Below, piece by piece: positions 1,960 to 48,195 of a DNA stretch of 64,000 nucleotides. The notes beneath the pieces were generated by a model. The model ran no database searches. It was not told where the DNA came from and saw only the letters and a program-made list of their open reading frames with translations. A program made the position numbers and the translations under genes. The stretch is from contig SVEC01000013.1 of the NCBI GenBank assembly GCA_015057555.1, forward strand, positions 1 through 64,000, written 5' to 3'. How positions within the stretch are numbered: position 1 is the stretch's first letter; every line of letters begins with the position of its first letter. This DNA comes from Lachnospiraceae bacterium (lineage in GTDB: Bacteria; Bacillota; Clostridia; Lachnospirales; Lachnospiraceae).

Positions 1960-2967
1960 ATGTTTACAACAATAGAGTTATTTGCAGGAGCTGGTGGATT
2001 GGCGTTAGGAGTAGAAAAGGCAGGATTTAATACACTTGGGCTCGTAGAATTTGATAAGGATGCCTGTGATACATTAAGAAAAAATAGACCTGAATGGAAT
2101 GTAATATGTGATGATATAGCTAATATATCTGGGCAGGATTTGGAGAAGCTGTTTGGCGTTAAGAAAAGAGAACTAGATTTATTATCAGGTGGTGCCCCAT
2201 GTCAAGCTTTCTCTTATGCAGGAAAAAGATTAGGATTAGAAGATGCTAGAGGTACTTTGTTTTATCATTATGCAATGTTTCTAGAAAAATTACAGCCTAA
2301 AATGTTCTTGTTTGAAAATGTAAAAGGCCTATTAACACATGATAGAGGAAAAACATATGCGACAATACTGGGCATTTTCAAAAAAGCAGGTTATGAGATA
2401 CAAAAGGATGTATTAAATGCATGGGATTTTGGCGTTGCACAAAAAAGAGAAAGATTGATTACAATAGGTATTAGAAATGATTTAGTTGGAAAGATTAATT
2501 TTTCATTTCCAGAGGTTCATAAATATAAACCTGTGTTAAGGGATGTGTTGCAAAACGTTCCACAAAGCATAGGAGTTCCTTACGGTGAGACTAAAAGAAA
2601 AATATTTGAATTAGTTCCAGCAGGAGGATATTGGAGAGATATTGACCCTGAGATAGCAAAATCTTATATGAAGAGTTGTTGGAATATGGAAGGTGGAAGA
2701 ACTGGAATATTGCGTAGAATGAGCATGGACGAGCCATCGTTGACTGTATTAACATCACCATCTCAAAAACAGACAGAACGTTGCCATCCGTTAGAGGCAA
2801 GACCATTTACTGTTAGAGAAAATGCGAGATGCCAGAGCTTTCCTGATGAGTGGGAATTTTGTGGTAGTGTTATGTCACAGTACAAGCAGGTAGGTAATGC
2901 AGTACCAGTTAATTTGGCATATGAGGTGTCAAAGGAAATATATAAAGCATTGGAGGAAGAAAAATAA
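1960..2967 (+). CDS. DNA (cytosine-5-)-methyltransferase, type II R-M
   Basis: m5C motifs FAGAGGLALG (I), GGAPCQAFSYAGKR (IV), FENVKGL (VI), QVGNAVP (X). Confidence 0.95.
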   Translation: MFTTIELFAGAGGLALGVEKAGFNTLGLVEFDKDACDTLRKNRPEWNVICDDIANISGQDLEKLFGVKKRELDLLSGGAPCQAFSYAGKRLGLEDARGTLFYHYAMFLEKLQPKMFLFENVKGLLTHDRGKTYATILGIFKKAGYEIQKDVLNAWDFGVAQKRERLITIGIRNDLVGKINFSFPEVHKYKPVLRDVLQNVPQSIGVPYGETKRKIFELVPAGGYWRDIDPEIAKSYMKSCWNMEGGRTGILRRMSMDEPSLTVLTSPSQKQTERCHPLEARPFTVRENARCQSFPDEWEFCGSVMSQYKQVGNAVPVNLAYEVSKEIYKALEEEK

Positions 2968-3851
2968 TGGAGTGGAATTTGAAGTTTATATCTGAAGAAG
3001 ATTTTACAAAACATGTTAAGGCTACTATTGAAAAGTATGGTGAAAAACTTGAATCCTTTGATGTAAAGCGATTTAATAAAAACATAATTGACCCTATTAA
3101 GCTGATTTTTGATAAAACTGTATATCGTTCTACTTGGGATGAAATCGTGAGTAATGAAATATTCAGACAAAGAGATAAAGCTAATAACAATGACATTGGA
3201 TATTTTCATCAGAGAATATTTCAGTACATTACTAATTGCCGTGTTCCTGAAAATGGAAAAGAGGGAGGTTGGGATGTAATATACAATAATGATGATGGTG
3301 TGATTCTTCCAGGTGGAGATATGGTTTATAATATTTATGTAGAGATGAAAAATAAGCATAATACTATGAATTCAGCATCCGCTGGCAAGACATACATAAA
3401 AATGCAGAATCAATTATTGAAGGATGACGATTGCGCGTGTTTTCTTGTAGAAGCTATTGCTCAAAAGTCACAGAATATTAAATGGGAAACAACTGTTGAT
3501 AAGAATAAGGTATCTCATAGACGAATAAGAAGAGTGAGTTTGGATCAGTTTTATGCGCTGGTAACAGGTGAAGAAGATGCATTTTATCAAATGTGTATGG
3601 TGTTACCGGATATTATTGAAAAGGTTGTAAATAGTGGCGAAGGTATTAGTGTTCCAGAAGATACTGTATTAGATGAATTAAAAAATATAGCTACTCAGAT
3701 TGGCGAAGAATCAGAATCTCTGGCTATGGCAATGGCTGTTTATATGCTTGGATTTAATACTTACAATGGATTCAAGGATTATTTTAAAGGAGAAGATGTA
3801 CAAGATGATGCAATGCTAAAGAGATTGTATGCATATGCTAAACATTTGTAA
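2967..3851 (+). CDS. Type II restriction endonuclease, Eco47II-like
   Basis: Start overlaps the MTase stop; YVEMKNKHNTMNSASAGKTYIKMQ nuclease core typical of Eco47II-like enzymes. Confidence 0.75.
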   Translation: MEWNLKFISEEDFTKHVKATIEKYGEKLESFDVKRFNKNIIDPIKLIFDKTVYRSTWDEIVSNEIFRQRDKANNNDIGYFHQRIFQYITNCRVPENGKEGGWDVIYNNDDGVILPGGDMVYNIYVEMKNKHNTMNSASAGKTYIKMQNQLLKDDDCACFLVEAIAQKSQNIKWETTVDKNKVSHRRIRRVSLDQFYALVTGEEDAFYQMCMVLPDIIEKVVNSGEGISVPEDTVLDELKNIATQIGEESESLAMAMAVYMLGFNTYNGFKDYFKGEDVQDDAMLKRLYAYAKHL

Positions 3852-3920
3852 AGATCATGACATATATCAACTTAATGAAAGTAGATGATTGAATAATTTA
3901 GAATAAGGAGGGATTGTTAG

Positions 3921-4817
3921 ATGATAGACAAGAGCAAATTGATTTTACCAGTATATTTGAATGAGAACATAGTAATGGATATGTTAGCAATAATAGAAGA
4001 TGGTTTTTCTATGGTAAGTGAGATTAGTACTTCGTCCGTAGCTACTACAAATAAAAACGAAAAAGTAAATGCTACATTTGCAACAAGTGACTTATTGAGT
4101 AAACTGTTGAAGATTGAACTTGGGGCGGAATCAAATAAAAAATCGGAGGATGAAAATTCTACTAATAGTAAAACTGAAAAAATTCATACAAGTACATCAT
4201 TGTTGTCCAAATTTAGAAGTGAATTACTTGAACTGGGCTTAATGACAAGCACTTCTGATACAGGAGTAAACATTAATGAAATTGAAGCAGGCGATTTTAT
4301 TGAAGTGACAGGTGAGTTAATGAAAAATCCTATGGTAAATATCTTGGAAAAAGCAATAGATGTTTTTCGTATGGCTGATATTTTTTCTGACAAGCCTGAA
4401 TTGGGTTCAAAAAAGCAGACGTCAACAAAAAACACACAGGATGCAAAAATTGTTAAACAAATGAAAATGTTTTTAGATGAATTAAAAGTGACAGGAACAA
4501 TTGATTTTGTTATGAAAAATTGTAATAGTACAATTGTACTCTCAGCACAAGAACAGTATTTACAGAATGATAATATTTCTGAATTGCTTGGTGGAAAGTT
4601 TAAGGTGCTAGGTAAGGTTATCAAGGTTTGCAAACAGAGTGGGGATAGTATTAATTTATTGCGAAAAACAACATTAGATGTATTAAAAGATGAAGAATTA
4701 AAAACATTTACAGAAATTTTTGAAAATGCAGAATTAAAAAAGTTCAACTTGCCAGATGTAGAAGTAAAAATTGAAGCACCTGCAGCTATTGTAATTCCGA
4801 TTGCGATATATGTTTAA
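3921..4817 (+). CDS. DUF6414-like protein
   Basis: N-terminus LILPVYLNENIVMDMLAIIEDGFSMVSEIST recalls the DUF6414 family; sits between R-M and kinase genes. Confidence 0.55.
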   Translation: MIDKSKLILPVYLNENIVMDMLAIIEDGFSMVSEISTSSVATTNKNEKVNATFATSDLLSKLLKIELGAESNKKSEDENSTNSKTEKIHTSTSLLSKFRSELLELGLMTSTSDTGVNINEIEAGDFIEVTGELMKNPMVNILEKAIDVFRMADIFSDKPELGSKKQTSTKNTQDAKIVKQMKMFLDELKVTGTIDFVMKNCNSTIVLSAQEQYLQNDNISELLGGKFKVLGKVIKVCKQSGDSINLLRKTTLDVLKDEELKTFTEIFENAELKKFNLPDVEVKIEAPAAIVIPIAIYV

Positions 4818-4845
4818 ACTCTTTTTGAAATGTGTTTGAAAGTGG

Positions 4846-6363
4846 GTGATAGAGTTGATTAGTGAAGATTCCTTGAAAAAGATTTCGCATATTTTTTGTG
4901 GAGATGAAGGAGATTTATATACATATAAAGGCGGACCAAAATTGGTTGAGTTTTTTAATAAATATTATGGTTCTAATGACAAATATGGACAAGGTTTTCC
5001 GTCGCGTTGGGTATATGTGTATGATAAGCTTGTACTATTGATCAACAGTAACCATTTTGATGGCTTTTTGGATATCATATTGAGTAAACAGTATTTGGTG
5101 GCAGAACAATCAATTACACAAGTTGAGGCTGCCGAAAAGATTGAAGTTATTTGGAGAGCGTTAAACAAAATTGTTGAGAGGGATCAATATAAAATTACTA
5201 CTAACAATGGTAAATATTATTTGGTAAGAGAAAGTGATGATTTAGTGCTTGTTGGGAGTGGCGGTTTTGCTAATGTATATCGCCAGAAATCAACTGGCGT
5301 TATTATAAAAAAACTTAAAGATGATTTTTTGACAGATAAAGGTATAAGGAGTAGGTTCAAAAGGGAGTACAATATCACAAAGTCGCTCCAAGGAACATTT
5401 GGAATCATTGATGTTTATGCATTTGATGAAGACGTGTGCTCGTATACAATGGAGCCGGCAGAAACAACATTAGAAAAATATATTAAAAACAATGATGTTT
5501 CTGAACAAATCAAAATCACATGTATTCGACAGATTTTACGTGTAATGACAGAAGTACATAATAGAGATATAATTCATAGAGATTTAAGTCCGAATAATAT
5601 TTTTATTATAGCAGGAGTGATAAAGATAGCTGATTTTGGATTGGGAAAAGATCTTAATGTGTTTACTTCTCATCAAACTATCCATACAAAGGCTATGGGA
5701 CAATACTATTATTGTGCACCTGAACAATTTATGATGTTACGTGAAGGCGACAAACGAAGTGATGTATATTCATTGGGTAGAGTAATCAATTATGTTATGA
5801 CTAAAGATCCTAGAAATTCACATCATGCATTTAGAAGTGTTTCTGAAAAGGCAACTAATGGAGATGCGGCTTATCGTTATGCTGATGCAGGTCAGCTGTC
5901 AATTTTTTTTGAGAAAGCTGTGACATATAGAAATCAAGCAGAGAATCAAGAAAGAATTGATTCGAAAATTAAAAGTAGAAAATTTGATGATGAGATAGAG
6001 AGTTATATATATAATCTAACAAATGAGGAAATTGCAAAAAGGATGCGATCGTATACAAATGGATTTTCGGATATGCTATTCCAATTTATGAAGCTGGATG
6101 ATTCGCATGCAGAGTTTGTAATTCAAAGTATAGATAAAGCGTACCAAATTGTAGGTGGACGAAGTTTTGAAGCATATGATGTGTATGCAATATTTGCAAA
6201 AAGAGTTTTAGAGGGTAAGTTTACATTTGTTGTAAAAGAGATTGCTGCAAATATTCTTAGATATGTTGCGTGGGATGTTAATAGATTTAGCGCCCAACAT
6301 ATGGTAGAAGAAATTATTGATGAGGGGATAGATCCTATGCTGGTGGACATTATTAGTAGTTAA
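4846..6363 (+). CDS. Ser/Thr protein kinase with an N-terminal domain resembling AbiJ-NTD3
   Basis: GTG start; kinase motifs VIIKKL, IIHRDLSPNNIFI, IADFGLG; N-terminal LVEFFNKYYGSNDKYGQGFPSRWVYVYDKL. Confidence 0.85.
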   Translation: MIELISEDSLKKISHIFCGDEGDLYTYKGGPKLVEFFNKYYGSNDKYGQGFPSRWVYVYDKLVLLINSNHFDGFLDIILSKQYLVAEQSITQVEAAEKIEVIWRALNKIVERDQYKITTNNGKYYLVRESDDLVLVGSGGFANVYRQKSTGVIIKKLKDDFLTDKGIRSRFKREYNITKSLQGTFGIIDVYAFDEDVCSYTMEPAETTLEKYIKNNDVSEQIKITCIRQILRVMTEVHNRDIIHRDLSPNNIFIIAGVIKIADFGLGKDLNVFTSHQTIHTKAMGQYYYCAPEQFMMLREGDKRSDVYSLGRVINYVMTKDPRNSHHAFRSVSEKATNGDAAYRYADAGQLSIFFEKAVTYRNQAENQERIDSKIKSRKFDDEIESYIYNLTNEEIAKRMRSYTNGFSDMLFQFMKLDDSHAEFVIQSIDKAYQIVGGRSFEAYDVYAIFAKRVLEGKFTFVVKEIAANILRYVAWDVNRFSAQHMVEEIIDEGIDPMLVDIISS

Positions 6364-35964: not shown

Positions 35965-36000
35965 AGCATTACCAAGTATATGAAGCCGAAAGGGGAAAAA

Positions 36001-38496
36001 ATGGCAAACGGTTTTAAATATGACGCATTTATAAGCTACAGACATGCGGATTTGGATAAATTTGTAGCAGAGAATTTACATAGAAAGCTGGAATCATATA
36101 AGGTTTCAAAAAAAGTAATTAGTAATGGTAGAGCTAGACGTAGCAAGATTGAAAGAGTCTTTAGAGATAAGGATGAGCTACCTATAACTAATAATTTGGA
36201 GGACCCTATAATTCAGGCACTTCAGCAGTCTGAGTATCTACTGGTAATATGTACTCCTAGATTAAAGGAGTCAGTGTGGTGCAAAAAGGAGATAGAGACC
36301 TTTATCAGTATGCATGGTAGAGATAAGATATTTGCAGTGCTAGCAGAGGGAGAGCCACAGGAATCTTTTCCAGAGGAAATACTCTACAGAGAGGGACAGG
36401 TACAGTATCCAGACGGAACTATAGGTTTGGGATTGATTCCAGCTGAGCCCCTAGCTGCTGACGTTAGAGGTAAAAGTAAAAAAGAAATCCTTAAAGCTAT
36501 GGATGTGGAGATGCTTAGGATTCTGGCACCTATGCTTGGAGTTGAATTTGATGACCTAAAGCAGAGACATAGAGAACGAAAGTTTAAAAAGATTATTACT
36601 GCCGCTGTGGCAGCAGCAGCTGTGTGTCTAGGAGTTGGTATAGCTAGTACCATAACGGCGCTACATATTAATAAGCAGAAGGAAAAGATAGAAGAGCAGT
36701 CCATAGAGATACAGGCTCAGGCTGATGAGATAGCTTCACAGTCAGATGCTATTCATACCCAGAATGAAAAGCTCATTGAGAATCAGGCAAAGAATTTGGC
36801 ACAGGAGTCCTTAGGATATCTTGAAAAGGGTGATAGACATAGAGCTATTGAAACTGCGATTGCGGCACTTACTGAATACGAAGGTATGCCTATGGTGTAT
36901 ACTCCAGAGGCTAGGTATGCATTGTTTAATAGCTTGTATCACTATGATATTGGTAACAAGATGAAACCTATATGCTGGTTGGAAATGCCAAGTCTGATAG
37001 ATGATTATGCCATATCTCCCAATAAAAACTTAGTAGCCTGTGTTGATATGACAGGAGAAATATGTATTTGGGATTTGTCGAAGCAAAAGAATATTATGGC
37101 GATTCCTGAGGTAGATGGTGTAAATATTATCTATGATGAAAATATAGCCTTTTATGATGATGAACATTTAATTTGCTTGCGAGGTGAGGATCAGCTGTGT
37201 AAGGTAAATGTTAATACAGGTGAAACAGTGTCCAGCATCACAGTGGAGGGCATGGATAAATTTTACAGTGATGATGGTAAATATGTTGCTGTGGAGGTGT
37301 TAGCTGGCTTTAATATTTATGATGTAAGTGGGGAACAGATTACATTTTCAGGTAATATTCCTTTAACTGAGGGTTATATGATAGATGAGGAACCATTGTA
37401 TTTCCAGGATGGTAAGCTGATATTTGTTGAAAGCCTAGTAGGTGATTTAGAGACTGATGTCAATGATGAGGAGGATATTCCTAGTAAGGTGATAATCAAT
37501 TTGTATGATTGCAATGTAATGGCGAAGCAGGCTAAGATACATGAAGATTATGATTCGGTTTCAGCTATCGCTTTTGATGGGGATAGCATATATTACAGTT
37601 CATATAATTTAGATGAAAAACTTGAATGTGTATTAAAAAGTTACCATGTAGAATCAGGGGAAGCTATGTGGGAACTTGATGAGTTTTTCTATGTTAGCAA
37701 TATACATTTACCAAAGGAAGATGATGGTAGGCTTCTTGTAGAAGAGAGCAATTGCATAAAATATGTGGATAAGGAATTAGGAAGTATTGTTATTAGGATG
37801 GAAATATCTGACTCTTTAGTATATGTGGAGGGGGTAGAAGGTACCAATGATTATATTGTGCTTTCTTCAGCAGGCAGATTAAGTAGATTATTTACTAATT
37901 CGGAAACAATTGTATTATATGATGATTCATTACAAAGACATATGGGAGATATAGAAATTTTCTGTGAAACTGGAAATGGCTATTTGCTTAAGCTTTTTGA
38001 TGACAACAAGGTAATATTTTACCAAGATACAGTAGGTAGGGATGTTCTGCCATATGAAGGTGAATACACAGAAAATTTAGGTATATTGGAGGAAGACATA
38101 GCCAAGGTTATCAGTGAATATGATTTTGATAAATCAGGAATATTAAATTGTATAATGTATACTGATGACAAGAAATACATGTTTGTATCCTATAATGACA
38201 ATACTGTGGAAATATATGATACCAACACAAAGGAACGACTTAATACATTGGACGATATTTCTTCTGCAATATGTGTGTATTATGGAACTGACAAGGAAGG
38301 AAATATGTATATAGGAAATTATACTTGGGGATACATTTTAGATAGTGAATGTAACCTGATTGGTGAGGTAGAGTATATGTCAGGTATAGATTCAGAGGGA
38401 GAGAAAATATTCGTTGACATTGATGATCAAAGATATATGTTCCCTATGTATTCTGTAGATGAGATGATACGAATGGGAATGGAGATTATAGATTAA
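36001..38496 (+). CDS. TIR domain protein with TM segment and WD40-like beta-propeller
   Basis: KYDAFISYRHADLDKFVAENLHRKLE...VFRDKDELP...LLVICTPRLKESVWCKKEIETF; TM at AAAVCLGVGIASTITAL; coiled coil; C-terminal propeller-like repeats. Confidence 0.88.
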   Translation: MANGFKYDAFISYRHADLDKFVAENLHRKLESYKVSKKVISNGRARRSKIERVFRDKDELPITNNLEDPIIQALQQSEYLLVICTPRLKESVWCKKEIETFISMHGRDKIFAVLAEGEPQESFPEEILYREGQVQYPDGTIGLGLIPAEPLAADVRGKSKKEILKAMDVEMLRILAPMLGVEFDDLKQRHRERKFKKIITAAVAAAAVCLGVGIASTITALHINKQKEKIEEQSIEIQAQADEIASQSDAIHTQNEKLIENQAKNLAQESLGYLEKGDRHRAIETAIAALTEYEGMPMVYTPEARYALFNSLYHYDIGNKMKPICWLEMPSLIDDYAISPNKNLVACVDMTGEICIWDLSKQKNIMAIPEVDGVNIIYDENIAFYDDEHLICLRGEDQLCKVNVNTGETVSSITVEGMDKFYSDDGKYVAVEVLAGFNIYDVSGEQITFSGNIPLTEGYMIDEEPLYFQDGKLIFVESLVGDLETDVNDEEDIPSKVIINLYDCNVMAKQAKIHEDYDSVSAIAFDGDSIYYSSYNLDEKLECVLKSYHVESGEAMWELDEFFYVSNIHLPKEDDGRLLVEESNCIKYVDKELGSIVIRMEISDSLVYVEGVEGTNDYIVLSSAGRLSRLFTNSETIVLYDDSLQRHMGDIEIFCETGNGYLLKLFDDNKVIFYQDTVGRDVLPYEGEYTENLGILEEDIAKVISEYDFDKSGILNCIMYTDDKKYMFVSYNDNTVEIYDTNTKERLNTLDDISSAICVYYGTDKEGNMYIGNYTWGYILDSECNLIGEVEYMSGIDSEGEKIFVDIDDQRYMFPMYSVDEMIRMGMEIID

Positions 38497-39892: not shown

Positions 39893-40233
39893 GGTATATA
39901 CACCTTCACCTTCTATTTAGAATACGTGTAGGTAGCACCTTTTTCAGTGCTATCGTAAAAAACACATTGATATTATACATTGTTGATGGGTACCTTGCAA
40001 GAAAAAAATGTGTCGATTTGGGTAAAAGTTAATTTACTACAGTAAAGTGATAGTGCAATAGCAAAACAAAGAGGATGAAATTACTAACAAGAGAGAGATT
40101 ACTATGTTGATTTTGCTGATTTGAGAAAGAATATAAGAAAAATATGATGGTTCGTAAGATAATACAAATATGAGAGAAGAAATCTGCTAGTATATGTGTA
40201 GTATTATAATAGAAGATGGAGGTGTAATAGGGG

Positions 40234-40524
40234 GTGATTTTAAAAGTTGATTATGAGGGTATTTCGAACGTTAAAACATCAATAGATTTACAGAGAGCGA
40301 ATTTTGATGAATTTTATGAGGCATTAAAAAATACAATATATAGTCTTCCTGATTATTGGGAGGGAAATGCTGCTGACGGATACATACAACAATTCAGTGA
40401 TTTGTCATCAAGTTTTGAGGCCATAGCGACGTTATTATATGATTTATCAACACAGCTTAGTAATATATCAACAAATTTTGCTTCAAATGATTCTGGAATG
40501 GCCAGTCAACTTGGTGCAAGCTAA
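40234..40524 (+). CDS. WXG100-family type VII secretion protein
   Basis: GTG start; about 96 aa helical hairpin with central YWEGNAADGY (WxG). Confidence 0.85.
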   Translation: MILKVDYEGISNVKTSIDLQRANFDEFYEALKNTIYSLPDYWEGNAADGYIQQFSDLSSSFEAIATLLYDLSTQLSNISTNFASNDSGMASQLGAS

Positions 40525-40638
40525 TTTCTAGATGAGGGAGAGACAGCTTTGAATCGGAAGGTTTGGAGCTGCTTTTTTATAGTAATATTTTAAAATCCTA
40601 CATTGGTGATGATAACAATTACATAAGAGGTGAGGTGT

Positions 40639-41376
40639 ATGATACATACGAAGAGAGTATTGATTTTAGAAAATGATGCAACTGAAAGGAAGACATTGAC
40701 AGAGTTTGTTGAAAAACATAAGGATGTTCAGGTATATGCAACTGATAATATAGGTGAAGCAATGGAAATATCCTTGAGAAATAATATAGATTTATTTTTC
40801 GTTGATATTGTTCTGGATAATAATAGTTCTTATGAGATTCTAGGGATGGAATTTGCAAAAATGATTAGAAAGATATCCCAATATGCATTTACTCCAATTG
40901 TGTTCATAACCTGTTTAGATGATCCCAGTATGTCAGCATATAGAGATATTCATTGTTATAGTTACTTAGGAAAACCCATAGATTACGCTGAGGTTGAGAA
41001 AGTAGTCGATGATGCATTAAAGTATTCCAATTATAATTCGTATCATGATGAAAAGTTGTTTCTTAAAAAAGATGGAATTATTCATTCAATAAGAATGAAG
41101 GATATTGTATATGTGGAAAGTCATGGTGGCATGATGGTGATTCATTGCAAAAAGTGTGAGTTGACTTTGTTCTATACCAGTATTGATATGATTCTTGAAA
41201 AACTGAAATATGATGTTTTTTTGAAATGTAATAGAAGCATAGTGTTTAATACTGACTACTTAAAGTGTATTGATACAAAGCAAAATAAAGTAATACTTGT
41301 AGATGGATTGGGTGAGTTTAAGATAAGCAGAAAAATGAAGGAGTATATGTTAAGACACATAAAACAGGGTTCATAA
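40639..41376 (+). CDS. LytTR-family response regulator (AgrA-like, no adjacent kinase)
   Basis: REC core IDLFFVDIVLDNN...FTPIVFITCLDDPSMSAYRDIHCYSYLGKP; LytTR domain YDVFLKCNRSIVFNTDYLKCID. Confidence 0.9.
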   Translation: MIHTKRVLILENDATERKTLTEFVEKHKDVQVYATDNIGEAMEISLRNNIDLFFVDIVLDNNSSYEILGMEFAKMIRKISQYAFTPIVFITCLDDPSMSAYRDIHCYSYLGKPIDYAEVEKVVDDALKYSNYNSYHDEKLFLKKDGIIHSIRMKDIVYVESHGGMMVIHCKKCELTLFYTSIDMILEKLKYDVFLKCNRSIVFNTDYLKCIDTKQNKVILVDGLGEFKISRKMKEYMLRHIKQGS

Positions 41377-41455
41377 GCTTTTGATTCTGGTGGTTCTTTG
41401 TGTGATATGACTTTCTGGTAAGAGAGAAGTTAAAAATAGAGGTGGAGGACGAAGA

Positions 41456-41887
41456 ATGTTCGGTTTTGATGAAAAAAATAAAGAAGCTGAAGCTTATTAT
41501 ATAAATAACTATGCTAAGGACATAAGTGTATATAGTGGAAAAATAAGGGTATATACGGATTATATAGAACGTCTAAACACTGTATATGAAAAACTATCTG
41601 ATTTGTTGGAACGCTGGCATTGGGCACGAGAAGATGTAATAAGCATACATAATGAGGTGGAAGGAAAGTGGTATGGAGAGATTAAAGATAAGTATATGGA
41701 ATATTCAACGGACCAATTGTTTATGATAAATATGCTTGATTATAAAACAATGATGGAGACGGTTCAGATGGATATATATAACAAGATGGAGGAACTGAAA
41801 TGTAAAGTATCAGATTGTGAACAATACATACAGTCTCTCAAGTCGCAATACATGAAATACGTATGGGAGGAAATATACGGCTTTTAA
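41456..41887 (+). CDS. Small helical T7SS-associated protein (LXG partner-like)
   Basis: 143 aa, all-helical, W-rich centre (WHWAREDV...KWYGEIKDKYMEY); between WXG100 and toxin genes. Confidence 0.6.
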   Translation: MFGFDEKNKEAEAYYINNYAKDISVYSGKIRVYTDYIERLNTVYEKLSDLLERWHWAREDVISIHNEVEGKWYGEIKDKYMEYSTDQLFMINMLDYKTMMETVQMDIYNKMEELKCKVSDCEQYIQSLKSQYMKYVWEEIYGF

Positions 41888-41972
41888 CATTGGAATATTC
41901 ATAAATGTGCAGATGTTATAAATACAGTAATTTGTGAACGTATCTTAAGCCAGAAAAGGAGGGTGATTATTA

Positions 41973-42296
41973 ATGAAGGATATATTAGTAATGGATACGG
42001 AAGCTTTTAAAGCCATGATTCAATATATAGATACTCAATTAATTATGCTTGATAATTTCAATGATAATAAGGAAACCATGAAAAATATGTTTGATGACAT
42101 AGAAGATTCTAAGGTGTTGTATGAATACAATCTAATGGTATCCAAGTTAATTAATATGGTTGATGACTATTACAAAATGGTGAAAAAGGCCGTAAATGCA
42201 TTATATACAATAGGAACAAATCTGAGTGACTATGATAGAACAGTATATGTTCATACGACTCTTACCAAAGATTACGATATGATAGAAAACGATTAA
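41973..42296 (+). CDS. Small helical T7SS-associated protein (second LXG partner-like)
   Basis: 107 aa helical protein directly upstream of the toxin gene. Confidence 0.58.
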   Translation: MKDILVMDTEAFKAMIQYIDTQLIMLDNFNDNKETMKNMFDDIEDSKVLYEYNLMVSKLINMVDDYYKMVKKAVNALYTIGTNLSDYDRTVYVHTTLTKDYDMIEND

Positions 42297-42305
42297 GGAT
42301 AAATT

Positions 42306-43490
42306 ATGGGATATAAAATTGATTATAAAAAGTTAATAAAGCTAAGAAATAAGTTGGATGAACTTTTGAATGAGCTGGAAACAGATGCTAAAAATCTTAC
42401 AATCTTATCTGAATACATGTATGATTCCTGCTCTATAAATTGCAAAGCTGCAATGTCCGTAAAGGCATACGTCAAAGATGTCCATATCTCGGCGGTATCA
42501 CCCTATATCCTAAATGCCATAGATGTTGTGAGAACCATCACAACAGAGTATTTTTATGAAATGTATGAGATTGATAATGGGGAAGATAGTGTTATTCAGG
42601 AAGAACATCTGGAGAATCTGGAAGGGAAATTATACGGTTTAAAAAATAAAGCTTGTGAGATATTGTTTGAATTAGAAAAATATGCTGAAGCTATAAGTGA
42701 CATTATGGATGTTACAACGAAAAATGCAGAGGAGCTAGAACCATATTTTGATGAGCAAAAACTGATAGTAACAAAGCTAAAAAATGAATTCGCATTGTAC
42801 GAGTCGGAGAAATTGGAAGAGGCAAAGACTGCTCAAGAGGTAATTAATGGATTCTATACCAAAGTGTCCAACTATGGTAATGATAATTTGGACATAACTA
42901 AATACGATGGAGAATATTACATAGAACCTTTACCAACAGAAGGTCTTCCGGAAGTAGAGCAATTATATGACGAACTTGGCTATAACGATGAAGAAAATGC
43001 TATTGACACCCTTGGGGAAGTGGGTGGTATAATGAATAATACAATAGACGGAGCTAAGTATCATAATGGTAAATATACAGGTGGAAGAACGAAAGACGAA
43101 TTGGATGATTTAGCAAAGGATCCTTCTCATGCATATCGAATAGAATTGCAAGGACTAAAAGAACGTGAGATAGGCCTAGACTTGGAAGAACGAGGAGAAT
43201 TAGGTTATATAATTCGCGATGATGAACAAAATGGTGGGGCCGAATTTATAGATGTTACAACAGGTATAAAATGGGATATTAAAAGTTTTGAATCATATCC
43301 AAATGGTCACACTGATCCAAAAAAAGGAGCTTTTACAGTTTCAAATGCTATGAAAAAGATAAATAAAGAATTTGATAAGAACCATAATGTGATTATTGAT
43401 GTCAGAGAATTGACACCTGAACATATTGAAGAATTAAAAGATGCAATCGAAAGAGAGGGAGTATCTGATAGGATAATATGGTATCCGTAG
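42306..43490 (+). CDS. LXG-like polymorphic toxin with C-terminal CdiA-type nuclease domain
   Basis: Helical N-terminus (NCKAAMSVKAYVKDVHISAVSPYIL); C-terminus AEFIDVTTGIKWDIKSFES...NVIIDVRELTPEHIEELKDAIEREGVSDRIIWYP. Confidence 0.82.
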   Translation: MGYKIDYKKLIKLRNKLDELLNELETDAKNLTILSEYMYDSCSINCKAAMSVKAYVKDVHISAVSPYILNAIDVVRTITTEYFYEMYEIDNGEDSVIQEEHLENLEGKLYGLKNKACEILFELEKYAEAISDIMDVTTKNAEELEPYFDEQKLIVTKLKNEFALYESEKLEEAKTAQEVINGFYTKVSNYGNDNLDITKYDGEYYIEPLPTEGLPEVEQLYDELGYNDEENAIDTLGEVGGIMNNTIDGAKYHNGKYTGGRTKDELDDLAKDPSHAYRIELQGLKEREIGLDLEERGELGYIIRDDEQNGGAEFIDVTTGIKWDIKSFESYPNGHTDPKKGAFTVSNAMKKINKEFDKNHNVIIDVRELTPEHIEELKDAIEREGVSDRIIWYP

Positions 43491-43498
43491 GAGGTATT

Positions 43499-44107
43499 AT
43501 GATTAAATTAAAAGAAACGGATTTTGGAAATGTAATTACAGAGCATAAAAAATGGATAGATTCTCTAGGAAGACAAGGAACCAGATTAAGTATTGACGAG
43601 ATTGATTTTAGTGAAACTAATATATCTGAAAAGCTTTTTGAACAAGCATACATTACAGGGTGTTCTTTTGATAATATAAATGCTAAGGACATCTCGTTTT
43701 ATTTAGCAAAATTATGTGCTTCGTCATTTAGAAATAGTAATCTAGAGAACGTAGACTTTACAAAAGCTGATTTATCGTATGTAGAGTTTAGTAACTCGAA
43801 ATTATATGATATAAATTTTAACAAATGTGAATGCATAGAGACCAATTTTGCAAAAGCAGAATTAACAAATGTTAAAATGACAGATGTTTTGCTTGATACA
43901 GTTGATTTGAGAGATACTAAAATAAGTAATATTGATGTAAGTAATTCCTCATTGGAGGCTGTTTTGGTTAAAGGAATGTCTCTGAAAAATGTTATAGGTT
44001 TAGATAAATTAATTAGAGTGAGTATCAATATAGGGGATGTAGATAAAACAATAATGTTATATGGTGAAGATGCCATACAATGGCTGGAAAGTAATTCCGA
44101 ACAATAG
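43499..44107 (+). CDS. Pentapeptide-repeat protein, putative cognate immunity protein
   Basis: Start near the toxin stop (ATG at 43499 in frame with track ORF 43478); repeats NLENVDFTKADLSYVEFSNSKLYDINFNKCECIETNFAKAELTNVKMTDV. Confidence 0.75.
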   Translation: MIKLKETDFGNVITEHKKWIDSLGRQGTRLSIDEIDFSETNISEKLFEQAYITGCSFDNINAKDISFYLAKLCASSFRNSNLENVDFTKADLSYVEFSNSKLYDINFNKCECIETNFAKAELTNVKMTDVLLDTVDLRDTKISNIDVSNSSLEAVLVKGMSLKNVIGLDKLIRVSINIGDVDKTIMLYGEDAIQWLESNSEQ

Positions 44108-44176
44108 ATGTTGCATAATAAATTATATAGTAGGGAAATTGAAAATATCCCAGGATAGTGGAAGAAAGAATATTGT

Positions 44177-44584
44177 ATGAGCAATAAAGTTTACTATTTT
44201 ATTTTTGAAAATGAATATATGAATAACATAATAAATAGGCTGTGTGTGCTATTTGATGTATCTCAAACAGAAAATTCTAAAATTTACAAGGGGGAAACTG
44301 ATCAGGTATACGTATTGAATGCATTAGATGAAGGAATGGTATGTGTTTATGCAAATGACATGAGTTATATATATGAAATATATATCATTTGTACCCCGAT
44401 TCATCAATCTGAAATAGAAGAACTGTTGCGCTCCCTGTGTGATGAAATTGAGGAAGATTATGGAGAAGACAGGAGTAGATTTATAAATTGTATATCTCTA
44501 AAATCTGAGATTATGATGAAATGTTTTGAAATTGCAGAAAAATATGGGTATCGAGATATTGTTGAACGCCTTATAAATTGTTAA
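44177..44584 (+). CDS. Small acidic hypothetical protein (second putative immunity)
   Basis: 135 aa downstream of toxin/immunity genes; YYFIFENEYMNNIINRLCVLFDVSQ...; no recognised family. Confidence 0.55.
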   Translation: MSNKVYYFIFENEYMNNIINRLCVLFDVSQTENSKIYKGETDQVYVLNALDEGMVCVYANDMSYIYEIYIICTPIHQSEIEELLRSLCDEIEEDYGEDRSRFINCISLKSEIMMKCFEIAEKYGYRDIVERLINC

Positions 44585-44622
44585 TATTTTATAGTAATAC
44601 TATTATAATCCTTATAAGATGT

Positions 44623-44757
44623 TGTTTTGGTTAAAGGAATGTCTCTGAAAAATGTTATAGGTTTAGATAAATTAATTAGAGTGAGTATCAATATAGGGGA
44701 TGTAGATAAAACAATAACAGATTATGATAACTTAATTACAGAGTATTAAAAATGGAA
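44623..44757 (+). pseudogene. Immunity-gene remnant: 95-bp exact copy of the 3' region fused to a diverged 5'-end copy
   Basis: 44623-44717 identical to 43960-44054; following about 40 bp matches the start of the 43499 gene at 32/40 positions. Confidence 0.88.
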
Positions 44758-44785
44758 TAACTTGAATGGTTATTCCATTTTTTGT
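44752..44785 (+). terminator. Terminator
   Basis: ggaataacttgaatggttattccattttttgtt. Confidence 0.75.
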
Positions 44786-44899
44786 TAATAAATAATACCA
44801 CTAAGTGCATTCAAAATGTACCCAAAGTACACTGTAGGTTAATTTAACTTTCTAAATATTACAGTATAATGTATGGTATATAGACTATCAGGTGGTATT

Positions 44900-45292
44900 A
44901 TGTCAGATAAGAAGAGCTCACAAGAGAATATTGAAGCTGGATGTAGATTGAAGAAGGTCAGGGAGGAAATGCACCTAACACAGGAGGCGTTTGCTAGTAA
45001 ACTTGATATATCTGTATCAGCCTATAAGAAAATCGAAGGTGGAGAAAATGGAGTTTCTACAAAGGTTTTAAGACAGCTAAGAAGGATGAATATTTCTTCA
45101 GATTATATTTTGTTCGGTGAAATCACCCCAGTCGATAAGATATGGTATGAGGTGGATAATAGTACTGCCAAGGATAAGATGGAAATCTTTTTAAGACTAC
45201 TGTTAGAATATACAAAGGATGAGGTTAGCGGAGTGAAGTTGTCGAAGTCCCAAGTAGTACAGTTGATTTCATCAGTATTTGACAAAGGATAA
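44900..45292 (+). CDS. XRE-family HTH regulator
   Basis: RLKKVREEMHLTQEAFASKLDISVSAYKKIEGGENGVSTKVLRQL. Confidence 0.9.
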   Translation: MSDKKSSQENIEAGCRLKKVREEMHLTQEAFASKLDISVSAYKKIEGGENGVSTKVLRQLRRMNISSDYILFGEITPVDKIWYEVDNSTAKDKMEIFLRLLLEYTKDEVSGVKLSKSQVVQLISSVFDKG

Positions 45293-45295
45293 AGC

Positions 45296-46024
45296 ATGAT
45301 GAGGAATATATTGATAGTTGAAGATAATGAAGTTCACATGAAGGCATTAGTCAAAATACTTTCAAGTATAGAGGATATACAGATTTTTAAAGCATATAAT
45401 AAGGCGGAAGCCAATTATATGCTTTCTTTGAATACATATAATGTGTTCTTGGTTGATATTATTCTAGATACGAAGAAACCTGGAGATGTTTCAGGAATTG
45501 ATTTTGTAAATAAGCTTAGAGGGTATAAGGAATACCAATTCACTCCAGTGATTTTTATTACATCTTTAGAAGATCCGAAGCTGTGTGCATATAGAGATTT
45601 GCATTGTTATCAATATATTGAGAAGCCTTTTGTTTCAGTTCAAGTAGAAAAAACTGTAAGGGAAGCTTTGAAATTTCCTATAAATAAGGTGAATAAAGAG
45701 AATGCTTATTTTAGAAAGGATGGAATACTATTTTCAGTAAAGATAGATACAATTACACATATTGTTGTAGGAAGAAACGGTGTAAAAATTTATACTGATA
45801 ATGATTGTTTGCAACTAGGCTATCAACCAGTGACTGAAATATTAAAGGAATTAGAGTCGGATGAATTTGTTCAGTGTAGCAGAGGAACAATAATTAATAA
45901 GAAGCATATAGAATATATTGATTATTCTAACAGATATGTAAAACTAAGAGGTGTTAAAGATACATTAGAGATAGGTCCGATTATGAAAAAGCACTTAAGA
46001 GATGGGTTGAAGGATAATGGATGA
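45296..46024 (+). CDS. LytTR-family response regulator (AgrA-like)
   Basis: ILIVEDNEVHMKALVKIL..., FLVDIILDTKK, LytTR domain DEFVQCSRGTIINKKHIEYID. Confidence 0.92.
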   Translation: MMRNILIVEDNEVHMKALVKILSSIEDIQIFKAYNKAEANYMLSLNTYNVFLVDIILDTKKPGDVSGIDFVNKLRGYKEYQFTPVIFITSLEDPKLCAYRDLHCYQYIEKPFVSVQVEKTVREALKFPINKVNKENAYFRKDGILFSVKIDTITHIVVGRNGVKIYTDNDCLQLGYQPVTEILKELESDEFVQCSRGTIINKKHIEYIDYSNRYVKLRGVKDTLEIGPIMKKHLRDGLKDNG

Positions 46025-47291
46025 GTTTGGGAAGCTATTTACTACTTTGCTTGAATGTATATCAATATTATTATGGTTGCATATTAGCTTTAGGAAGAGA
46101 ATCAAACAAAGCAGAGGAAAATTGTATTTTGTTATTATATATGTAGCCTATTATTATATTTTAAACCAGTTCAAAATAGGCATTATATTTGACATTATTC
46201 CTATTGTACTGGTGTTTGTTTGGGTTAAACTACAATTTCATGAGAGCTATATTACTTCAATTGTAAAATATATTATGTGCTTACTGGGAGTTGGATTAAT
46301 ACAAGCAATAACCTTTGCTGTGATAGGTTATTTAGATGAGGAGATTATTAAATTTGAAATTGGGCAGATATATATCACGGCAAGTATAATAAGTGTAATT
46401 ATATCCATGGTTATATATTTTTTACTTAAGAATAAGGGGTTTCAAATATTAAAACTAGATGAGTATTCGGTAGCAGTGCTGGTTTTTATAGCAGGGATAG
46501 TTTTGTTTATAAAATATGACTATGAAAAACAAGGCGGAATTTATAGTTATGTTTATATGATTTTATTTTTCTTATTAATGTTGTTTGTTATAATGATGTT
46601 CAAGGGATTGAAGGTTAAGCACAATTTAGAGCAAAAACAACAGGAGTTAGAAGCGAGAGAAAATTATGAAAATGCATATGAGAAGCTTTTAATGGAGCTA
46701 AGACGAAAGCAACATGATTATGACAATCAAATTGCGGCATTATATAGTTTGCAAATATTAGAAGATAATCAAGATAATTTAGGTAGCATACAAAAGGAAT
46801 ATGCTGAAGAACTTTTAACAAGAGAAAAATATGATGAGCTGATAATGAAATGTGATAATCCGATTTTAACAGGATATGTCTACACTTGTTGTATTGAGGC
46901 TGCTGGGTTAGGTATAAGGATAGAGCCTAATATTATATGTCAAAAAAATAATTCTAAGATAGCATTGCATCAGATAATTGAAATATTGGGTATCCTTATT
47001 AATAATGCCATAGAGTACTTGAAAGACAGTAATATATCTAACAAGGAAATTAATGTACAAGTATTTGGGGAGTCGAGCCAATTGCGTATTGTGGTGTCGA
47101 ATGTGGCTGAATACATAACTTATAATGAATTAGAAAAAATGTTTCAGATGGGGTATAGTACAAAAGGAGATGACAGAGGGATTGGGTTATATTCCTTAAA
47201 GCATATAGTTCAAAAGAATAAAGGCAAATTGATAGTTGATAATATATCAAAATCCAATAAGAATTGGTTAGAAATAGAAGTAGTATTTTAA
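46017..47291 (+). CDS. GHKL-domain sensor histidine kinase (AgrC-like)
   Basis: Multi-TM N-terminus, ELRRKQHDYDNQIAALYSLQ (HxxxN), GILINNAIEYLKDS, STKGDDRGIGLYSLKHIVQKNKG. Confidence 0.9.
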   Translation: MDEFGKLFTTLLECISILLWLHISFRKRIKQSRGKLYFVIIYVAYYYILNQFKIGIIFDIIPIVLVFVWVKLQFHESYITSIVKYIMCLLGVGLIQAITFAVIGYLDEEIIKFEIGQIYITASIISVIISMVIYFLLKNKGFQILKLDEYSVAVLVFIAGIVLFIKYDYEKQGGIYSYVYMILFFLLMLFVIMMFKGLKVKHNLEQKQQELEARENYENAYEKLLMELRRKQHDYDNQIAALYSLQILEDNQDNLGSIQKEYAEELLTREKYDELIMKCDNPILTGYVYTCCIEAAGLGIRIEPNIICQKNNSKIALHQIIEILGILINNAIEYLKDSNISNKEINVQVFGESSQLRIVVSNVAEYITYNELEKMFQMGYSTKGDDRGIGLYSLKHIVQKNKGKLIVDNISKSNKNWLEIEVVF

Positions 47292-47327
47292 AAGGGAAGG
47301 AGATTTTTTAAGTCTCCTTCCCTTAGT
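47291..47327. terminator. Bidirectional terminator between agrC-like and agrD
   Basis: aagggaaggagattttttaagtctccttccctt. Confidence 0.8.
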
Positions 47328-47328
47328 T

Positions 47329-47433
47329 TTATTCGTCAAAAGACGGATATTCAGGTTCTCCTAAGAACCAAAAGCTACTCCAATCATCCCATTTTGGTAT
47401 GAAGCTGTTGAAGATTGTTGTCCAGAAATTCAT
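47329..47433 (-). CDS. agrD: AgrD-like cyclic autoinducer peptide precursor (missing from ORF track)
   Basis: MNFWTTIFNSFIPKWDDWSSFWFLGEPEYPSFDE (34 aa); RBS aaaggaggtg; starts 4 nt after the agrB stop; amphipathic N-terminus and EPEYP-type tail. Confidence 0.85.
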   Translation of the reverse strand: MNFWTTIFNSFIPKWDDWSSFWFLGEPEYPSFDE

Positions 47434-47437
47434 GCGT

Positions 47438-47956
47438 TCACCTCCTTTTGTATGCAACATAAAGTTGTAGTGTGTGTATTATAAGTAACCAGAAGCCTAT
47501 GTTTATAGGCTGATTGGTTTCTGTTGTTAAAAGAACCAATATAAAGATTCCGATTACCATAGCTTCCTTAATTCTTGCTCTAATAATGAAGTCCCTCGAT
47601 GCTTTAGGTCTTGTTGCTGCTTGAACAGGACTTAGATTACAAGTGATAAATCCACAAACCATACTAATAAGAATTGAATATGCTTTGGGTAAATATATTA
47701 AGGAACCAAGAATAATTCCAGACGATAGTAGCAACAAGCTTAAAAGAAAGCAAAATAGATAGGTTTTGCAATGTATACCACCACTATTTACTCTAAAAGC
47801 TACAAAGAAAAAAAGACCATAGAAGAATTCCTTGTGAAAACCAAGAGAATAAAAGATAAAAAAGAAAATAAGAGCTTTGCTTAGGTCAGATAAAGTCCCC
47901 TTCAGGTAGAAGAGGAGAATTGCTTTTTCGCGTTTGCTTAATTTAGCTGTTGACAT
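47438..47956 (-). CDS. agrB: AgrB-like peptide-processing membrane protease
   Basis: RVNSGGIHCKTYLFC catalytic His/Cys region; multi-TM; start likely internal ATG at 47956. Confidence 0.9.
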   Translation of the reverse strand: MSTAKLSKREKAILLFYLKGTLSDLSKALIFFFIFYSLGFHKEFFYGLFFFVAFRVNSGGIHCKTYLFCFLLSLLLLSSGIILGSLIYLPKAYSILISMVCGFITCNLSPVQAATRPKASRDFIIRARIKEAMVIGIFILVLLTTETNQPINIGFWLLIIHTLQLYVAYKRR

Positions 47957-48195
47957 GATTACCACCTGCTTTGTATTTGATGGTGTTATTGTATTAGGGA
48001 AAATGTCGAAAATATGATTTTATGAATGAATTAGAGTTTTGACGTACTAAACTTAATATTTGACTAGATAATAGTAGTTTATGGTGTGTTTGATATAAAA
48101 AAATATAAATTGGTTATAAAAAATGTTAGATTGTTTGATTTATTATATATAATAAAAGTTTATCTGATATTTAAGAATTTAGAAAAATATAGAAA

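Follow-up and report, generated by a model that had tools for sequence, protein, structure and literature searches.

A probable type VII secretion toxin cassette beside a resident agr quorum-sensing module in a Lachnospiraceae genome

The stretch of DNA analyzed here, called the window throughout, comprises 64,000 nucleotides of a Lachnospiraceae bacterium (GenBank assembly GCA_015057555.1, contig SVEC01000013.1, positions 1 to 64,000 of the forward strand). At 40234-47956 it carries genes of a type VII secretion system (T7SS) toxin cassette next to those of an agr system. Open reading frames (ORFs) and profile matches placed a WXG100 gene, a LytTR response regulator (RR1), two small helical proteins, an LXG-type toxin, a pentapeptide-repeat protein, a 135-aa ORF, an XRE regulator, a second LytTR response regulator (RR2) and a GHKL histidine kinase (HK) in this order, followed on the minus strand by agrD and agrB (Table 1). 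An earlier reading of the letters without database searches (the sequence-only reading) had listed these genes apart from the 135-aa ORF, and each was found in place; its assignment of an LXG/T7SS toxin cassette and of an agr module is supported as well. It had joined all of them into a single, possibly quorum-sensing-controlled island. We consider it likely that they are instead two side-by-side modules, a resident agr quorum-sensing module and, inserted beside it, a T7SS effector cassette of transferable kind.

The comparison with relatives, whose genomes are drafts, argues for two modules. In three relatives of the same genus (G157, G161 and G167) an [XRE-]RR2-HK-agrB set has the same cofE-like and HK/OmpR genes as neighbours on its two sides, and no toxin cassette is present between these flanks. 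Accordingly, toxin and agr module were not inherited together, which speaks against a single island. The left flank of the window could be aligned to the cofE-like upstream region of G161 and G167 as far as ~40,063, and homology to the regions upstream of XRE in the relatives restarts at ~44,800. Both modules are AT-rich, with a G+C content of ~31% vs 38-40% in the flanks. In G161 (L067) the slot between the cofE-like gene and XRE is occupied by two extra kinases and an extra agr-type response regulator where the window has the toxin cassette, and because of these additional genes we regard the slot as a variable site. The cassette of WXG100, RR1, Lap1, Lap2, LXG toxin and pentapeptide immunity genes would thus have entered a variable slot beside XRE-RR2-HK-agrDB. 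Besides, a partial repeat of the immunity gene at the right edge of the cassette is a sign of recent rearrangement by recombination.

Table 1. Features of the toxin cassette and the agr module (positions within the window)
Feature	Position	Strand	Basis
Inserted toxin cassette	40065..44800 (approximate edges)		Flank alignment vs relatives
WXG100 (Esx-like), 96 aa, GTG start	40234..40524	+	Pfam WXG100 42 bits, TIGR03930 49 bits, both above cut-off
Intrinsic terminator after WXG100 gene	40544..40571	+	12-bp stem and T-run, fold z-score -4.7
RR1, orphan LytTR response regulator, alternative GTG start 40630	40639..41376	+	Response_reg 41.8 bits, LytTR 44.4 bits
Lap1-type helical targeting protein, YwqH-like	41456..41887	+	PF16888 29.2 bits, under cut-off 33.7
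Lap2-type helical targeting protein	41973..42296	+	Position immediately before LXG gene, as in G167 C72
LXG-type toxin, 394 aa (aa 1-230 export domain, aa ~258-394 toxin domain)	42306..43490	+	Homology of both domains
Pentapeptide-repeat protein, putative immunity	43499..44107	+	Pentapeptide_4 64.6 bits
Second small ORF, 135 aa, possible extra immunity protein	44177..44584	+	Position only
Scar	44623..44756	+	95 bp equal to immunity gene 3' part (blastn 100%), then 24 bp like its 5' part (92%)
Terminator-like hairpin between cassette and agr module	44748..44782	+	15-bp stem, T-run, -16.2 kcal/mol, z -4.2
Dyad TGTAC-N5-GTACA before XRE	44816..44835 (approximate)		Palindrome recurs upstream of XRE in L067, L069, L070
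Resident XRE-RR2-HK-agrB/agrD module	44873-47965	RR operon +, agrBD -	Synteny in relatives
XRE regulator	44873..45292	+	HTH_3 35 bits; syntenic with RR2-HK in relatives
RR2, LytTR response regulator, predicted AgrA role	45296..46024	+	Response_reg 47.1 bits, LytTR 39.4 bits
AgrC-like GHKL histidine kinase	46017..47291	+	HATPase_c_5 40 bits; AgrC model 58 bits, under cut-off 500
Terminator hairpin between convergent HK and agrD	47292..47324		15-bp stem, -22.7 kcal/mol, z -5.5
agrD, MNFWTTIFNSFIPKWDDWSSFWFLGEPEYPSFDE, predicted serine-type autoinducer precursor	47329..47433	-	Conserved motif in relatives
agrB peptidase	47438..47965	-	PF04647 74.8 bits

The toxin itself gave no match to the Pfam LXG model. 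Its N-terminal domain is 34-36% identical to proteins of G167, one of which is encoded directly after essC-yukD and another after Lap-type genes. A more distant relationship (E 1e-5 to 1e-7 across ~200 aa) connects it with proteins encoded in G056 and G404, and the ones tested reach 57-70 bits against the Pfam LXG model. The C-terminal domain (~aa 258-394) shares 58% identity with the end of a 1032-aa baseplate-V-type spike protein, whose gene is on a plasmid of Paenibacillus polymyxa; P. glacialis has a broken copy. In both cases a pentapeptide gene stands immediately after the toxin domain, and the pentapeptide protein of the window is 40-41% identical to these. The arrangement is that of a variable C-terminal toxin domain with an immunity gene downstream, and the toxin-immunity module is strongly evidenced since the pairing recurs on different carrier proteins. 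Toxin domain and pentapeptide protein therefore very likely constitute a genuine polymorphic toxin-immunity pair, as judged by homology, in which the pentapeptide protein would shield the producer cell. The toxin domain had no family match in Pfam or NCBIfam, no match in a PDB profile search and no relative in phage and viral collections. A conserved GAEFID...KWD[IV]K pattern might, as a guess, point to a PD-(D/E)XK nuclease. An AlphaFold2 model of the domain built from three alignment rows was set aside (predicted local distance difference test score, pLDDT, 42). On the P. polymyxa plasmid (NZ_CP133769.1, L097) baseplate-V-type proteins, one ending in the toxin domain found here, are followed by pentapeptide, GH-E nuclease and ankyrin genes, an array that looks like a toxin array of the contractile-injection type.

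Two Lap-type genes directly precede the toxin gene, and the same layout accompanies related LXG genes of G167 and G404, where the Lap1-type gene shares its position with Lap genes of the LXG loci. No family match was obtained in profile searches for the Lap2-type protein, nor for the 135-aa ORF. Similar clusters were described for telC and telD of Streptococcus intermedius, in which two small helical targeting proteins directly before the LXG toxin are likewise followed by immunity (PMC9600955, PMC10765036). However, the Lap proteins of these clusters belong to the DUF3130 and DUF3958 families, whereas those of the window are YwqH-like or without family match. Unlike telC/telD, the window cassette further includes a WXG100 gene and an orphan LytTR regulator of its own, and no Pfam or NCBIfam family corresponds to its toxin domain. 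Its WXG100 protein is the sole Pfam WXG100 match in the genome at E<=0.001.

The sequence-only reading had placed the toxin genes away from any visible T7SS core, which holds for the window but not for the genome, and had made export depend on a T7SS ATPase elsewhere. Contig C11 of the same genome encodes a complete EssC with two FtsK domains (TIGR03928, 1154 bits), together with YukD-like, FHA, MinD/TadZ-like and WXG100-like proteins and a Pfam-LXG substrate. Among the T7SS variants T7SSc-T7SSj of PMC11217815, this locus resembles the T7SSf of Clostridia by gene content, a comparison that covers EssC, YukD-like, WXG100-like, FHA and MinD/TadZ-like ATPase genes. The Lap partners may bring the toxin to the T7SS encoded on C11, which would export it in an EssC-dependent manner and deliver it into neighbouring bacteria, with killing as the presumed outcome.

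The agr module agrees with the known AgrBDCA system in the His and Cys of AgrB, the conserved tail of AgrD, the GHKL kinase and the LytTR regulator. His65 and Cys72, the catalytic residues of AgrB, are invariant in 14 AgrB proteins, and the kinase shows the H-box HDYDN, the N-box NNAIE and a GIGL motif. AgrD has the ring residue and the conserved acidic tail; the motif S-[FL]-x-F-[FL]-GEP-[DEK]-[YF]-P is common to six relatives, and a looser form, S-x3-[FL]-GEP-x-[YF]-P, extends across seven loci. In contrast to AgrBDCA, the ring position usually held by Cys is Ser here, an XRE gene heads the RR-HK operon and agrBD is convergent on the other strand. AgrB would process AgrD into a serine-ring peptide, which the GHKL kinase may sense. 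The dyad before XRE is likely an operator for XRE autoregulation. A second agr set in the same genome (L139, G000:C16) consists of a LytTR response regulator, a kinase and agrB. Downstream of it, on the same strand, lie a 180-aa RHS-repeat ORF and the gene of a surface protein that spans at least 3044 aa and contains fn3 and PKD domains.

According to the sequence-only reading, the two LytTR regulators are clearly paralogous. They are indeed homologous (32% identity, E 3.5e-40), but the motif quoted for the pair characterizes the agr-type subfamily as a whole and is not specific to these two. RR2 is 47-57% identical to the syntenic response regulators of relatives and clusters with them in the tree (97/92 support), and RR1 falls outside this clade. 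An origin of RR1 as a recent local duplicate of RR2 is therefore not supported, though fast divergence is possible. RR1, called orphan for the lack of a kinase gene inside the cassette, retains the phospho-acceptor Asp and the Lys in the alignment, and no ortholog was found in 36 other genomes of the genus. It belongs to the agr-type subfamily, with closest matches of 32-37% identity, and not to the subfamily of LytTR genes linked to essC.

Promoters were compared by simple direct-repeat counts against 300 shuffles. Direct repeats with 21-bp spacing are present at ten agrBD promoters, with a score of 93 vs a shuffle mean of 74 and a maximum of 88; after removal of the promoter of the window the score was 83 vs a shuffle maximum of 74. 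Such repeats are as expected for binding sites of LytTR dimers, and RR2 may bind them and activate its own agrBD promoter. At the WXG100 promoter the scan revealed no LytTR-type 21-bp repeat (at chance, P 0.87), and no LytTR-like site was found in the intergenic regions of the cassette. On the other hand, a perfect 12/12 direct repeat with 21-bp spacing, ATATCACTTATG, lies at C11:152864-152896 (L004:865-897), ~110-145 bp upstream of the gene that opens the T7SS locus. It was unreached in 300 shuffles, and with up to three mismatches allowed the genome contains no other such site; with up to two allowed, its motif is absent near the cassette and agr promoters. Since the WXG100 promoter is without such a repeat, whereas that of the distant T7SS locus contains a perfect repeat, the link of the toxin to quorum control is only positional.

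Quorum control of the toxin is therefore plausible from position alone. In Staphylococcus aureus, Agr is among the regulators of the ess/T7SS genes and acts via a wider circuit of SigB, ArlRS, SpoVG and SarA (PMC10765036); in the window the agr genes stand next to a toxin cassette, whose control by them is no more than a possibility. The sequence-only reading had proposed that the autoinducing peptide (AIP) is read by the AgrC-like kinase, which phosphorylates RR2, RR1 or both and so switches on the LXG cassette at high cell density. The adjacency of cassette and agr genes fits this model, as do the agr-type affiliation of RR1, its intact receiver residues and its lack of a kinase of its own, and in two other genomes (G086 and G292) an RR-HK-agrD-agrB set lies directly upstream of the T7SSb gene esaA. 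However, at the same locus in relatives the agr module is free of the toxin, a terminator separates the modules, the WXG100 promoter is without the repeat, no connection between the AgrC-like kinase and RR1 emerged and only one of 74 essC-bearing genomes has agrB within 20 kb of essC. A switching-on of the toxin by the AIP is hence possible but unsupported, and we regard the model as unlikely. Another explanation sees RR1 as a LytTR activator, brought in by the cassette, that uses the tandem repeat at C11:152864 to turn on the remote T7SS locus. The perfect and genome-unique repeat points in this direction, no LytTR gene was present in the examined stretch of the C11 locus, and in four other genomes a LytTR gene directly follows essC. 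Nevertheless, the genome encodes several other LytTR regulators, the predicted site has no motif in common with the cassette or agr promoters, and RR1 stands outside the essC-linked subfamily, so that this explanation, too, appears doubtful.

RR1 might also be passive cargo or decaying, the cassette being expressed constitutively or via global regulators. The lack of an RR1 ortholog in the genus, the lack of LytTR-like sites between the cassette genes and the scar downstream would agree with this; yet the ORF is intact, its receiver and LytTR residues are conserved and within the cassette it precedes the co-oriented Lap genes, and we give this possibility little credence. An inserted effector cassette next to a resident agr module remains the likely interpretation, in which RR1, an agr-subfamily regulator travelling in the cassette, would most likely tune the cassette or the distant T7SS locus. 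Several points weigh against it. The closeness of the modules and the agr-type subfamily membership of RR1 could reflect shared control, and the crude repeat scan could miss a diverged RR1 site. Furthermore, the source genome is a draft of 27 contigs that is 87% complete, the type of the C11 system was assigned from gene content and not from a tree, and among the cassette proteins the one-by-one searches in relatives covered only the toxin and RR1.

Elsewhere in the window, genes for a type II methyltransferase and a restriction enzyme are followed by a Stk2-type defence kinase (1960-6363; PADLOC 713 bits). The protein encoded at 35980-38496 has 838 aa and shows a weak TIR-like match at its N-terminus; G161 and G167 have a similar protein in this position.

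Throughout the family, agrB and essC are rarely and not generally linked: the two lie within 20 kb of each other in 1/74 essC-bearing genomes, namely G086. Similarly, WXG100 was present in one of 41 agrB loci, and this locus represents the T7SSb core genes of G292. In G086 (C1; L088/L189) and G292 (C26; L153), which belong to different genera, we found the exact order RR-HK-agrD-agrB-esaA, with agrB and esaA overlapping or nearly touching; the order is present in 2/21 genomes with an EsaA match. Downstream of esaA, T7SSb esxA follows in both, plus essB/yukC in G292. Chance would hardly account for two exact adjacencies when the genes have diverged, and therefore a coupling of agr and T7SS probably occurs in this family. 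Moreover, a LytTR-domain gene is located directly downstream of essC in four T7SSe-like loci (L115, L116, L118, L125) that also contain a kinase and a large surface protein; the accessible part of PMC11217815 does not name LytTR as a component of T7SSe. Titles and abstracts of the open-access literature yielded no account of a linkage between agr and T7SS genes for Clostridia.

The triggers of type VII secretion in gut-type Clostridia are little studied. The toxin domain with its pentapeptide immunity, found on both LXG and baseplate-type carriers, gave no match to the Pfam and NCBIfam families. Tentatively, the family may have wired agr-type peptide signalling to type VII secretion repeatedly, as RR-HK-agrD-agrB-esaA sets in two genera and, here, through a mobile LXG cassette whose agr-type LytTR activator would act on the distant T7SS locus via a tandem 21-bp repeat. 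With a LytTR regulator embedded in the cassette, a LytTR-like site ahead of the T7SS locus that is unique in the genome and, in two genera, agr sets that immediately precede T7SSb genes, peptide-controlled contact killing becomes a concrete and testable idea.

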